From NCBI GenBank assembly GCA_964023275.1, contig OZ029913.1:49541976-49605975 (forward strand): a DNA stretch of 64,000 bases. Direction: 5' to 3'. Made by a program: the position numbers and the translations under genes. The stretch is from Norana najaformis. Its lineage: Eukaryota; Annelida; Clitellata; Crassiclitellata; Hormogastridae. The number at the start of each line of letters is the position of its first letter. Within the stretch, counting starts at the first letter, position 1. The notes under the pieces are model-generated. The model was not told the DNA's origin. It ran no database searches and saw only the letters and a program-made list of their open reading frames with translations. This document shows, in pieces, positions 56,590 to 63,357 of the stretch.

Positions 56590-56787
56590 TTAGTTAGATG
56601 AGAACAGATTTGTGAGAGAGGGATGAGAGGGTATGAACAGCTACTTCAAGACACTCCTGCAGCCATAGCATAAAAGCCACAGAGGCGTGTTGTTTGAGAC
56701 TGAGTCGAATTTTTGCACATGAAATTGTATTTTATCAGTTTCTGGGTCACTGTTTCCTTGATCATCATCACACAATAGAGAGGATAC
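56590..56787 (-). pseudogene. DDE-Ulp1 gene, block 6 (protease C-terminal part)
   Basis: Acceptor 'ctttgcttcag' before 56787. It encodes VSSLLCDDDQGNSDPETDKI, QFHVQKFDSV and, in another frame, LCGFYAMAAG, the Ulp1-type Q-x-(N/D)-x-x-x-C-G-x-(F/Y)-(A/S) active-site cysteine region. Confidence 0.6.
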
Positions 56788-57027
56788 CTGAAGCAAAGAA
56801 AGTTATTACTTCTCAAACATATTTAATGACACATGAAGTTATCGGAAATTATGTTAATGTGGTTACCTATTAAGTCATTATACATGATTTGAAACTTGCG
56901 AATTGGTGTTTTGTATATATGCACATATATATGCATGTGTATATCACTGTACTACTTAAATTAATGTTTAGGCAATGACTCTTTGATTTGATGTTTCTCA
57001 TATGTTAACACATAGTAGAAAACGAAC

Positions 57028-57909
57028 CTGCAGTACTAGAGTTTTGTCCACGCACACAAAGACTGTCGTAAATGTACACATTCCTATGTATTCGTCCAAA
57101 GACATTGGTAACGCATATCCAAGGTTTATTATTTGAACAAATGGCTTTCCATGTGATTTACGAAAGCGCAGCAAAGACTTCATATGCACACACTGGGCTA
57201 AGCCGGGCACTGGAGTCCTGTTGTGGTTTAGGAAAATTGCTTGGATAATTTCTTTAGTGCCTCACCAATTTCTTTGTCAGACAGTTCATCGTACGTCAGC
57301 AGCGCAGGACTTGTAGTTATTTCTTTATCCCGCAATAGAACATTTTTGTTGGGGCGATCATCTTTCAGTGCGGCCTTTTCGTTGGAGCATAGAATATTTG
57401 CAATATAATTTTCTTTTAATACTGTTGGACAGGTTTTCCGGAGATTATTTTTACTCAGAAGAATCTGGCTTGCTCTTGAAAAGTCATTATAAGTACAGGA
57501 TATCTTTTTCCTAATCTGTATCCATCTTTGGGATCAGTGATTGATTGTCTTTTCTTTCAGGCGCTCTTTCGACCACCGGGCAATAACATTTCTGTTAATT
57601 TGCCCTTGTTTAAAGTTAGCTGGTTCAGTATGAATTCCATCAGACATACTTGATTGTAGTGTAGGGTTTTACCTTTAACTACACCACAGTGCAATTCCAC
57701 AATGGCATTGCTGGCACACCTTGGTACAAAATCAGTTGCTTTTACACCTATGAATCGTACTTGATTCTTATGTAAAGGTGATGACCACAAAGGAAATAAG
57801 TACATTAGACTTTCAATATAATGAAAGGCAGCTGGTGAATATAATTTATTTGCACATGAATCACCTCCATCTGAAAGTTTTATGCCTTCCAGTGCCTTTC
57901 GAAAGTAGC
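57028..57909 (-). pseudogene. DDE-Ulp1 gene, block 5 (third catalytic residue and protease start)
   Basis: Acceptor 'ttgttttgcag' before 57909. It encodes YFRKALEGIKLSDGGDSCAN, FHYIESLMYLFPLWSSPLHK and SNAIVELHCGVVK. After frame changes it gives NRNVIARWSKERLKEKTIN, LLTYDELSDKEIGEALKKL, then protease pieces GKPFVQIINL and NVYIYDSLCV. It ends CAG before GTTCGT. Confidence 0.65.
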
Positions 57910-58654
57910 CTGCAAAACAAAGAGTTAACTTTATTGAGCGAACCATTAAAGATAGTGATGATAACATCGTAATGTCTTAATGATATGATGTGAACAAACT
58001 TTAAGAAATATGTAAATATCATCTATACTTTTTTGTCAGACTGTTTGATCTAATTTCAGTCGTGTATTTTCAGAAAAAGTTTAATACTGTAAGAGGAACC
58101 ACTCTTTATTTCATATTATTGTTACATCCTTTGCAGACTATCCTTTTCTTGTATCTGTATAGCATCTTCCTCTGTTGCATCTTATGAATTTTCTCTTCCT
58201 AATATTTTAGCCATTTTTGCTAATAATCTGTACTTTGCTTCTTCTTTTATTTACCATTAAGTTACTTTGTATTATCCCATTTTAACCATTTAGCATAAGC
58301 TTATACTCAGCATTGATGACGCAATGTTTTTGTTCCCAAATTATATTCTGGCGATTATAAACGATAACTAATTTGTGTTGGGAGGTTGATTTCTACAAAT
58401 CCACATAGCCACTAGGCCAACATTTACGTTAACTTTATAATGGAGCGTTACTTCAGCAGCGACATGAACTTATTACCATTATAACTTCTAAAAATGAATG
58501 TAAGGATATCACTTTTGGCATGGCTTTGCATAGTCTAGTAACAGATGTTATGCATCAAAATTAAGAAATATTAACAGCGTTTTTAAAATAATGTAAACCA
58601 TTACCACATCCAATTATTACATTGGTCAATTTAAGAACAGTACACTGGATTATG

Positions 58655-60121
58655 TTCAGCGTTTGAACAAACAAACAAACCTAATCTTGATCCTAATGAC
58701 CTTCATAATTATCACCCTATTTCTAATCTCTCTTTTCTCTCCAAAACTCTTGAGAGACTTGTTTCCCTTCAATTGTTACCCTATCTTGAAGATTCAGGAC
58801 TTATGCCTCCTGGTCAGTCTGGTTTTAGGCGTCATCACTCTACTGAATCTGTTCTTTTGTCCCTCCTTTCGGACATTTATTCAGCCATTGATCAGTCTCA
58901 CATTACCCTCCTTGCACTCTATGATGTCTCCGCTGTCTTTGACACATTTGATCATAATATTTTGTTATGCCGTCTTGAGCTATCTTTTGGCCTCCATAGT
59001 AGTCCTCTTCACTGGTTTCGTTCTTATCTGAGCAGTCGAACACAGATGGTTATTCTTGGGGACTCCCGTACATCCTGGGTTAAAGTTAATATTGGTGTTC
59101 CCCAGGGCTCAGTCCTTGGTCCTCTTTTATACATTTTGTATACTGCTGATAAACACTTGGCTGTTGGTCATTTGTACGCTGATGATGTCCAGGCTTTTGT
59201 TCAGAGATCTCCATCTGCGCAACTTGCTCTTGTTGGTAAGATTGATGCCCTGATTAACGATATTCAACACTGGATGTCCTGCAGTCGTCTTCGCCTTAAT
59301 CCTGCTAAGACTCAGTTGATCTGGTTTGGTTCTAAATACCGTCTCGCTCAGATTGACTACTCTTGCTTATCTGAAGCTTTCTCCTATTTTATGTTTTTCG
59401 TCTAGTGTTCGTAACCTGGGCGTTATACTTGACTATAACCTTACCTTCGCAAACCATGTCTCTAGTTTGACCCGTTGTTGTTACTACCTTAAGAGTTGTT
59501 TGTCGTTCTGTTTCTTCCTCTGTCTTTACTACTATGATTCACGCCATGATATGCTGTTGCATTGATTACTGCAACTCTGTACTTGCTGGTTTGCCTAAGC
59601 ATCGGCTGTCTTCCCTTCAATCAGTACTAAATTCTGCGGCCAGGTTAATATCATGTCTTCCTCGTTTCTCTCATATCTCTGATTACATCATTCAGCAACT
59701 TCATTGGCTCCCTATCCAATCTCGTATTCAGTTTAAACTATTATCACTGGTAATAAGAGCTTGCATGGGCCAGGCTCCAAAATATCTTTGTGATCTTATT
59801 TGGCCTCCATGCTCTAGTACCTCATCCCGCCCTTTACGTTCTTTAGATCGTATGGATCTATTTGTTCCTTGTGTTAAGTCCTGCCTTGCTCAGCAGAGGG
59901 CTTTTGCTGTTGTTGGCCCATCTCTGTGGAGTGAACTTCCGCTATCACTTCGTGCTAGGGCCACTGTTGTTAATAGAGCTCAGTCAGCTCGTTGTTTAAA
60001 GACGTTCTTATTTCCTCGTTGTTTAAAGACGTTCTTATTTCCCAGGGGCTCTCGCGCTGGAAGTGCCTCTGAGTAGTTTGTTCTGTAAGAAGCGCTATAT
60101 AAGTTATCAAATACAAATAAC
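58655..60121 (+). pseudogene. CR1-like LINE inserted in an intron of the DDE-Ulp1 gene
   Basis: The plus strand encodes reverse transcriptase with [71 protein letters not shown] and LRLNPAKTQLIWFGSKYRL (58773-59405), one frame break near 59400, then RNLGVILDYNLTFANHV, LHWLPIQSRIQFKLLSLVI and RAFAVVGPSLWSELPLSL. It ends in 'gcgctatataagttatcaaa' and 'tacaaataacaa'. 5'-truncated before the reverse transcriptase. YADD is intact and lesions are few, so it is fairly recent. A 25-base repeat near 60000-60050 duplicates CLKTFLFPR. Confidence 0.88.
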
Positions 60122-62110: not shown

Positions 62111-62279
62111 TTCGGTCCTCTCTTTCAACAGAACGTCAAACATAAGGAACTATTTGGTATTGCTTTAACTACACAGCTTCTATAGTTTATTTAACCTTAA
62201 TATTAATTAGATTATCTTTAACGAATTGTAGGCTATCAGAAATGCCGAATTTTGTTTCCTTGAATTAAGTATTCATACA

Positions 62280-62582
62280 TGGCGACTTATAAATGCCAAG
62301 GAACAATGCGGCCAAATTTGGTGGAAACACTCGTGGAAAACCTTGCACCAAGGCGATTTAAGTCTGTTAGGCGTCTCACTTGATGGACAAATACGGAGGA
62401 ACTCTGGCCATGATAATTCAGTTGAGAAACTCTTGGCAGTGACATCAAGCCCGTGTGGTTTACTGTCATTATCACCATTTCCAGGACTTTCTTTGTCGTC
62501 CATTTCTTTACTTGGATCGGATGACTTATCAGCCTCAGTTCCCTTGAAATTACTAAGTATGGAAATCGTTTTGACCATTTCC
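62280..62582 (-). pseudogene. DDE-Ulp1 gene, block 2 (acidic linker)
   Basis: Acceptor 'tgatgtag' before 62582. It encodes an acidic stretch KGTEADKSSDPSKEMDDKES, then LSWPEFLRICPSSETPNRL. The domain is not recognised. Confidence 0.45.
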
Positions 62583-62945
62583 TACATCATTATGGAACTT
62601 GACTTAACAATTTCATTTCCTAATTTGTTATAAAGCAGCCGTAATATATAATACTTAAACTGTCCAAGTGACAGATAGAAAATTAACTCAAGCTTATATG
62701 TGATATGGAGAGTGCATTAGCCTTGATCCCTAATTATGAATAACTGAAAGTAATAAGTCCAGTAAGTGAATTCCTCAGTGTAATTTTATGCCATTTTGAA
62801 GTAATAACTAAAATCAATCACTTGATTTACACAGTAAAAGTACGTAGTGTGTTACTGTAAATGTAAGTAAATGCAAGAAAGTTAACTATGAGAAATACAG
62901 TAAATATAACTGTGAAACTGAGGATATTTTGTCAAAAGTGCTTAC

Positions 62946-63357
62946 TTGTTTTCCTTTGTCCACAAAGGTGGCTTTGTATTTGCTGTCTAAGCAATGCACA
63001 ATGAAATACAATTGTTGTATCATGTTGTTTCCATTCCCGTATGCACTACGCACTTCCTTGCGGAAAGAAGAGACTCTGTCTTTCAAGTTTTGCCTGTAAT
63101 ATGTCTTTTGGCACAGGTTTCTTGACTGCAAATTTGTGCTTAGCGCAATGAGTCCAGCTATAACTGTCATTAGACCAATGGATTTTATGCTCTCCACTGA
63201 AAAGGTACATTTTACCAGGTTTCGGAAAGATTGCTGCATGAAAGCTTATGTTGGAAGGGTCTGGCTTCTGAAGAATAATGGCGACTTCATAAATTAACAA
63301 ACTGCTGTGCTTCTCCCTGTAAACAATAGCCAGATTTGCTGTCGATGTTGCTTCCAT
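62946..63357 (-). pseudogene. DDE-Ulp1 gene, block 1 (N-terminal module)
   Basis: Starts METSTAN-like at 63357 (MEATSTANLAIVYREKH) and carries FSGEHKIHWSNDSYSWTHC and KPVPKDILQAKLERQSLFF. A frame change lies near 63050, then YGNGNNMIQQLYFIVHCLD and KATFVDKGKQ end at the donor GTAAGC. The W-x-x-D-x-Y-x-W pattern recurs in N-terminal modules of related transposases, by memory. Confidence 0.6.

Follow-up and report, generated by a model that had tools for sequence, protein, structure and literature searches.

Which kind of element left a reading frame combining transposase-like and protease-like motifs, and whether these motifs ever belonged to one gene, is the question raised by the minus strand of a 64,000-nucleotide stretch from the annelid Norana najaformis (GenBank assembly GCA_964023275.1, contig OZ029913.1, positions 49,541,976 to 49,605,975), hereafter referred to as the window. 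Between positions 63357 and 56630 this strand carries a decayed and apparently spliced transposase gene, with a DDE-type core followed by an Ulp1/C48-like block. It is probably the remnant of a cut-and-paste DNA transposon, MULE/Rehavkus-like, of low copy number and now dead, that combined a DDE transposase with a C48-like protease, whose relatives carry a PHD finger and whose ends appear to be inverted repeats. A preliminary description of the window had proposed a spliced DDE-Ulp1 family; the inverted tandem-repeat blocks, the PHD finger of the relatives and the possibly CG-1-like N-terminus go beyond it.

The motifs named in that description, D, D, C-x-x-H and E followed by Ulp1-type motifs, were each retrieved in this order on the minus strand and checked at the codon level. 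The DDE core (61315-61914), supported by its motifs and by relatives at C11:23.57 Mb and C1:48.12 Mb, holds the first aspartate (D1) in HLDATG (codon 61749-61747), the second (D2) in VIDFSF (61539-61537), and the C-x-x-H signature as C-C-A-H (61398-61387, with C at 61398-61396 and H at 61389-61387). D1 and D2 are 69 residues apart, an in-frame TAG being counted. The glutamate is found in SNAIVE (57697-57695), within a segment made of the E block and a linker (57456-57909) that matches C5:24995378. We take the order D, D, C-x-x-H, E to be a mark of MULE transposases. Upstream of the core, the lead-in to the DDE domain (61851-62128) reads AITQAIIAGRAAPTNLYFKKL... and then PDVFRRAAVQKRK..., with frame shifts, the second part having a remnant at C11:19.79 Mb. 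No further copy was found within the window.

Relatives were searched for in the 608 Mb of the genome, in 17 contigs, and all the copy counts given here are lower bounds because the genome searches score the best candidates only. The stretch from D2 to C-x-x-H shares 37% identity with C1:48.12 Mb (E = 2.1e-5 in the genome search), which reads VITDFSYAMIYSAI...VICEAHMIK and keeps D2, C and H. For the D1 stretch, a relative reading VHYDARG...YYYCL lies at C11:23.57 Mb (E = 0.019 genome-wide, 4e-7 within the locus), and the region up to D1 has a degraded counterpart at C11:19.79 Mb. At an E-value of 0.001 or below, the first core piece retrieved only itself and one degraded relative. The E block aligns with C5:24995378 with 32% identity and the catalytic E aligned (E = 6.8e-6 genome-wide, 6.9e-11 within the 74 kb around the window); its homologues are found at C5, C1:47.43 Mb and C1:48.12 Mb, and the E residue is kept at C5 and C1:48.12 Mb.

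The protease-like region starts with a linker and the first half of the block (57028-57455, matching the C5 protease frame), including FVQIINLG (F at 57141), the W of the H-W pair (57121-57119) and VYIYDSL (D codon 57067-57065), and ends with the second half (56630-56787, supported by alignments with relatives), including LCGFYAMA (C codon 56681-56679). The C5 protease frame matches the window block with E = 4e-8 within the 74 kb around the window and 0.046 genome-wide. Alignment of the relatives uncovered a conserved FVQILNVGDHW...VYDSL...Q...LCGFY, the order H-W, D, Q, C of which is presumably the catalytic motif set of C48 (Ulp1) peptidases. The H-W pair is kept in all five relatives with letters at this place (C5, C7, C10, C12 and C16; C14 has a gap). 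The aspartate is kept in C5, C12, C14, C16 and the window, replaced by E in C10 and lost with its surrounding stretch in C7, and the cysteine is present in C5, C10, C12, C16, C1:48.12 Mb and the window, lost in C14 and not covered in C7. Judging from these motifs, the block can be considered C48-like, without being assigned to C48 proper. Three phmmer matches of the protease to PDB entries (E = 1.5) were discarded as a different protein, NEQ131.

Outside the genome, the IMG/VR scan with the transposase core gave no relative, and the scan with the protease-block alignment gave 116 pattern stretches, none of which was confirmed. No phage relative was obtained by tblastn and a protease motif was not found in viral and genome contigs. 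A D1 motif occurred in 40 stretches of viral contigs, which were read as chance after tblastn (best E = 0.097).

The copies that the preliminary description proposed to look for in the genome were found: protease-block matches occur at no fewer than nine places, window included (14 matches at E <= 1 among 15 candidates scored), with inverted repeats at six of the nine. The nine loci compared are C5, C7, C10, C12, C14, C16, C1:47.43 Mb, C1:48.12 Mb and the window. At C1:48.12 Mb, the D2-CxxH region, the E block, a remnant of the protease cysteine and a PHD finger follow each other within 3.7 kb; at C5 the E block is followed by the protease, and at C1:47.43 Mb by the protease lead-in only. The same description would have taken copies lacking the protease downstream of the DDE core as evidence against it; behind E, C5 shows the block and C1:48.12 Mb a remnant of it. 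The C5 frame that comes after the protease is a PHD finger (PF00628, 27.6 bits for a cut-off of 24), and PHD matches lie behind the protease at six of the nine loci (C5, C10, C12, C14, C16 and C1:48.12 Mb), none being seen at C7 and C1:47.43 Mb. Between the inverted repeats, only E-protease-PHD or protease-PHD parts are found at C5 (C5:24977000-25003000), C12, C14 and C16, and the protease alone at C7. No convincing match to the D-D part was obtained in the stretches seen of these five loci, and these copies therefore look internally shortened.

The two introns of the preliminary description, with GT-AG borders and matching phases, were both recovered. A linker exon (60340-60470, from reading frames and a splice-site check) ends at a phase-1 donor, and the first intron (57910-60339) joins it to the E block, with phase 1 on both sides of 60340|57909 and GGC as the joined codon. 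At this position the open frame continues in C1:47.43 Mb and C1:48.12 Mb, the likeness upstream being limited to a few residues. The intron contains, on the plus strand and outside the gene, a reverse-transcriptase fragment (58635-60076; the part at 58635-59405 matches PF00078 with E = 1.5e-22, and 59471-60076 matches no Pfam family), so that its length is partly due to insertion. The second intron (56788-57027, 240 nt), supported by frames, splice sites and relatives, has phase 0 and falls between Q and V of LVLQ|VSSLLC (57028|56787). It is missing in the six relatives aligned there, with a clean read-through in C5, C12 and C14, a one-residue gap nearby in C10 and in C7, which is degraded there, and an alignment that begins only two residues before the position in C16. 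Because six aligned relatives run through without an intron, this second junction is strengthened; the intron, present only in the window copy of the seven compared, was gained in this lineage or lost in the others. Phases at both junctions are consistent with splicing of the predicted gene. In its present state the window gene is dead, as had been proposed, since it displays an in-frame TAG in the DDE core (61587-61585), frame shifts at several places and the loss of the protease H of the H-W pair (57121-57118), where the relatives read D-H-W.

The surroundings were examined over 74 kb, reaching beyond the window end. Tandem Repeats Finder (TRF) detected there a single tandem array with a period between 100 and 250 bp, made of 3.5 copies of a 185-bp unit (66647-67299), just past the window end. 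Apart from the array itself, blastn matches to it in the 74 kb are restricted to 49169-49506, on the other side of the gene and on the opposite strand, with 84-86% identity. We propose these two blocks as the 5' terminal block (66624-67330, corresponding to C1:49608599-49609305) and the 3' terminal block (about 1.8 units of 185 bp, inverted relative to the 5' one). With these blocks as ends, the window element would measure about 18.2 kb (49169-67330), the reverse-transcriptase fragments and the frames at 54616-55972 being counted in.

Inverted repeats on both sides of the gene are a feature of six of the nine loci: C5, C7, C12, C14, C16 and the window. Most of them contain tandem units of 164-189 bp. 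They extend over 1.1 kb with 180-186-bp units at C5 and over about 420 nt, in pieces 185-189 bp apart, at C12; they contain 164-bp units at C16, and 186-bp units are detected by TRF on the 3' side of C7. One unit is common to C12, C14 and C1:48.12 Mb and another to C5 and C7, each with the same orientation relative to the gene, and together with those of C16 and the window they form four groups without mutual similarity. The repeat blocks start about 200-530 bp past the PHD match at C5, C12, C14, C16 and C1:48.12 Mb. A 16-nt end motif from C12, GATGTCTGTCAAGTTG, occurs five times with at most one mismatch in the 249 kb of locus sequence, for an expectation of about 0.006 under uniform bases. 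C12 carries it at its two ends, and C5, C7 and C14 at a single end each; in C14 it lies 146 nt beyond the aligned repeat, at the position of the end according to the alignment with C12. From these elements we infer that the repeat blocks behind the gene are terminal repeats. About 69 copies of the 164-bp unit (more than 11 kb) are located upstream of the protease-PHD copy at C16:9341001-9361000, where a terminal repeat may have grown into a satellite.

Several observations weigh against the interpretation as a transposon of this kind. The profile check suggested by the preliminary description failed: no Pfam DDE, MULE or integrase family matches the window pieces or the joined readings, even at E 10, and the C48 profile matches neither the window pieces, nor the C5 copy, nor any of five family members, a PDB search with the five-member protease profile being negative as well. 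Homology within the genome stands in for a profile in the DDE half, and the C48 assignment rests on motifs. The proposed DDE-Ulp1 family stands as regards the order shared by genome copies and the junction phases, and its C48 identity is without profile support. At three of the nine places, the window among them, the match to the C5 protease frame is weak (E 0.027-0.046), and these places are carried by neighbouring blocks. No PHD finger is detectable in the window copy (best E = 0.53), and no single copy unites the N-terminal domain, D1, D2, E, protease, PHD and both ends. The inverted repeats of C14 are 127 nt long without tandem units. Within the 25 kb covered at C1:48.12 Mb, an array (17.8 copies of a 189-bp unit) stands only on the 3' side, and two of the nine loci show no inverted arrays: C10, which retains a 34-nt remnant, and C1:47.43 Mb, whose tandem array falls between the E block and the protease region. 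The window blocks share no sequence with the blocks of the other loci, the end motif is not found within one mismatch at the window or at C16, and further inverted pairs in the 74 kb come from interspersed and simple repeats. Taking the 8-11 bp of MULEs for target-site duplications, C12 displays an 8-bp GCTTTCTT directly beside one end and again at a distance of 4 bp from the other, which is not a clean duplication, C5 has only an 8-bp repeat located inside the end, and none was seen at C7, C14, C16 and the window, the ends tested at C14, C16 and the window being merely the limits of the alignable repeat.

These weaknesses leave room for other explanations. It is unlikely that the inverted tandem arrays are independent satellites in or beside which the elements landed, as could be thought from the four dissimilar repeat groups, the 11 kb or so of array upstream of the C16 copy and the unclean target-site duplications; such an origin hardly accounts for inverted blocks flanking the gene at six of the nine loci, the constant orientation relative to the gene between loci, the start of the blocks about 200-530 bp past the PHD match at five loci and the end motif common to several of them. 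The low copy number, the introns and the first core piece, with a single degraded relative besides itself at E <= 0.001, would suit a host gene domesticated from such a transposon and decayed only later. This origin is very improbable in view of the stops, the frame shifts and the lost protease H, of the inverted blocks that flank the gene, and of the nine scattered loci, several of them broken too. Least credible is that the remains of a MULE and of an Ulp1-type element, adjacent but without relation to each other, have been read as a single gene: gaps and 2.4 kb containing a reverse-transcriptase fragment do part D2 from E in the window, and neither half is tied to a family by any profile, but E is followed by the protease region at C5, C1:48.12 Mb, the window and, with the lead-in only, C1:47.43 Mb, and D2-CxxH stands ahead of E at C1:48.12 Mb. 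The interpretation as one decayed MULE/Rehavkus-like transposon, with a protease and inverted-repeat ends, is retained in the following comparisons.

Mutator transposons with Ulp1 domains are described from hydra, lancelet, Arabidopsis, maize, rice and melon (PMC2836005). The preliminary description regarded its DDE-Ulp1 family as possibly not described for this lineage; with the hydra and lancelet Mutator elements, the combination itself is already known from animals. The present family resembles these elements in being a Mutator-type transposon that encodes an Ulp1-type protease, and differs from them, compared by description only, by a protease outside Pfam C48 and by relatives that add a PHD finger and repeat-array ends. 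Rehavkus, known from insects and annelids, is described as a MULE-like element whose transposase carries a PHD finger and whose 3' terminal repeat is preceded by a minisatellite (PMC6446971). Likeness to it is found in the PHD finger of the transposase, seen in relatives at six of nine loci and not in the window copy, and in the repeats behind the gene, as TRF arrays at C5, C7 and C1:48.12 Mb and as short repeat blocks at C12, C16 and the window. Unlike in Rehavkus, also compared by description only, the blocks are here at both ends and inverted. The words Ulp1 and protease are absent from the main text of the Rehavkus source (PMC6446971), as are protease, PHD, CG-1 and Ulp1 from that of a study using it as outgroup (PMC13359780), and CG-1 and Ulp1 from that of PMC10027918. 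Ginger1 transposases, with Ulp1 or OTU and, in one family, PHD (PMC2836005), share a DDE transposase with a C-terminal Ulp1, a PHD finger in one family and introns; unlike the MULE-type C-x-x-H observed here, without integrase profile match, their core is similar to Gypsy integrases.

Tetris is a foldback element without conserved open reading frames, with tandem units of about 220 bp in its ends (PMC4079207). It has in common with the present family the long terminal inverted repeats with internal tandem units, and its units also form satellite-like arrays. This foldback feature is displayed by C5, C16, the window and, on the 3' side, C7, the pieces of C12 being spaced. In contrast to the Tetris copies, the present family retains gene parts between its arrays. 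It combines features of Ulp1-carrying MULEs, Rehavkus and Tetris. No description of DDE, Ulp1-like protease, PHD and satellite-like ends together was found in literature searches, which did not cover Repbase, the source to which the cited papers refer for elements of this sort.

The N-terminal domain (63049-63357) starts with an ATG at 63357, its end lying in a different frame (62954-63070, from reading frames) with a possible splice donor, GTAAGC, behind it. CG-1 is the DNA-binding domain of CAMTA factors. Its profile (PF03859) weakly matches residues 25-74 of the first open frame, which has 105 residues (E = 0.0076, 16.4 bits, below the curated cut-off of 23.5; E = 0.0096 in the joined reading), the region being a candidate DNA-binding domain. 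Alignment to the CG-1 exon of the host CAMTA gave a score of 45 against 24.9 +/- 4.2 for shuffles, 2 of 2000 of which reach 45, the best stretch being PKPGKMYLFSGEHKIHWSNDSYSW aligned with PPSGTMLLYSRKKVRYRKDGYCW. The other Pfam matches of the window gene pieces are few and weak, and were taken for chance. A genome search with PF03859 found the CAMTA exon at C15:4117690 and one weak match, and did not report the window N-terminus; CG-1 as a multi-copy transposon domain is unsupported by this search. No transposon relative of the domain was present among the fetched copies (best E = 1.6) and no fusion of CG-1 to a transposase turned up in literature searches. The CG-1 likeness is given as a lead only. 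A perfect 19-nt inverted repeat (62997-63015 and 63499-63517) brackets the N-terminal exon, and a hairpin with a perfect stem of 18 bp and a loop of 3 nt (63446-63484) lies just upstream of it; no short terminal inverted repeats adjoining the gene stood out.

In a functional copy, the transposase core and an N-terminal domain that may be CG-1-like would bind sites repeated in the terminal arrays, and the DDE triad would excise the element and insert it. The PHD finger could read histone tails, so that the target chromatin would be chosen or tolerated, and the protease could strip the transposase, or repair proteins at the break, of SUMO or ubiquitin. With a repeated terminal unit, each end would offer several binding sites, and the arrays could grow or shrink through unequal exchange. 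Later insertions and point mutations would have spread the window element over about 18 kb and killed it. A broader and less likely proposal is that of a four-part transposase (CG-1-like domain, MULE-type DDE, C48-like protease outside the known profile, PHD) with nucleosome-sized satellite units as binding sites at both ends, in a family whose terminal repeat is exchanged between lineages. The four unrelated units beside related genes in one genome would reflect this swapping, and the family would therefore generate and disperse satellite DNA and supply the kind of coding partner missing from foldback elements such as Tetris. Tetris, with its satellite-like ends, is described without an autonomous coding copy (PMC4079207). 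Transposase parts kept between satellite-like ends make it testable how transposon termini become satellite DNA, and the family also makes testable whether a SUMO/ubiquitin protease and a histone-reading finger aid the movement of an element.

Some neighbouring features complete the picture of the locus and of its relatives. A candidate linker exon (62276-62581, minus strand) was proposed as an open frame only and no relative of it was found. At C11:19780000-19789000, frames resembling a piggyBac transposase come after the degraded relative at 19.79 Mb, and thus mobile elements are nested there too. In the window, two overlapping open frames occupy 54616-55972 of the minus strand, reading MPRKCVNTVDNFCYICGEV... 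and then ...YTKYMCFLCEWDSRA...; they have no Pfam match and look like another mobile element nested inside the large one. A TATATAAA box is located upstream of these frames, at about 56075.

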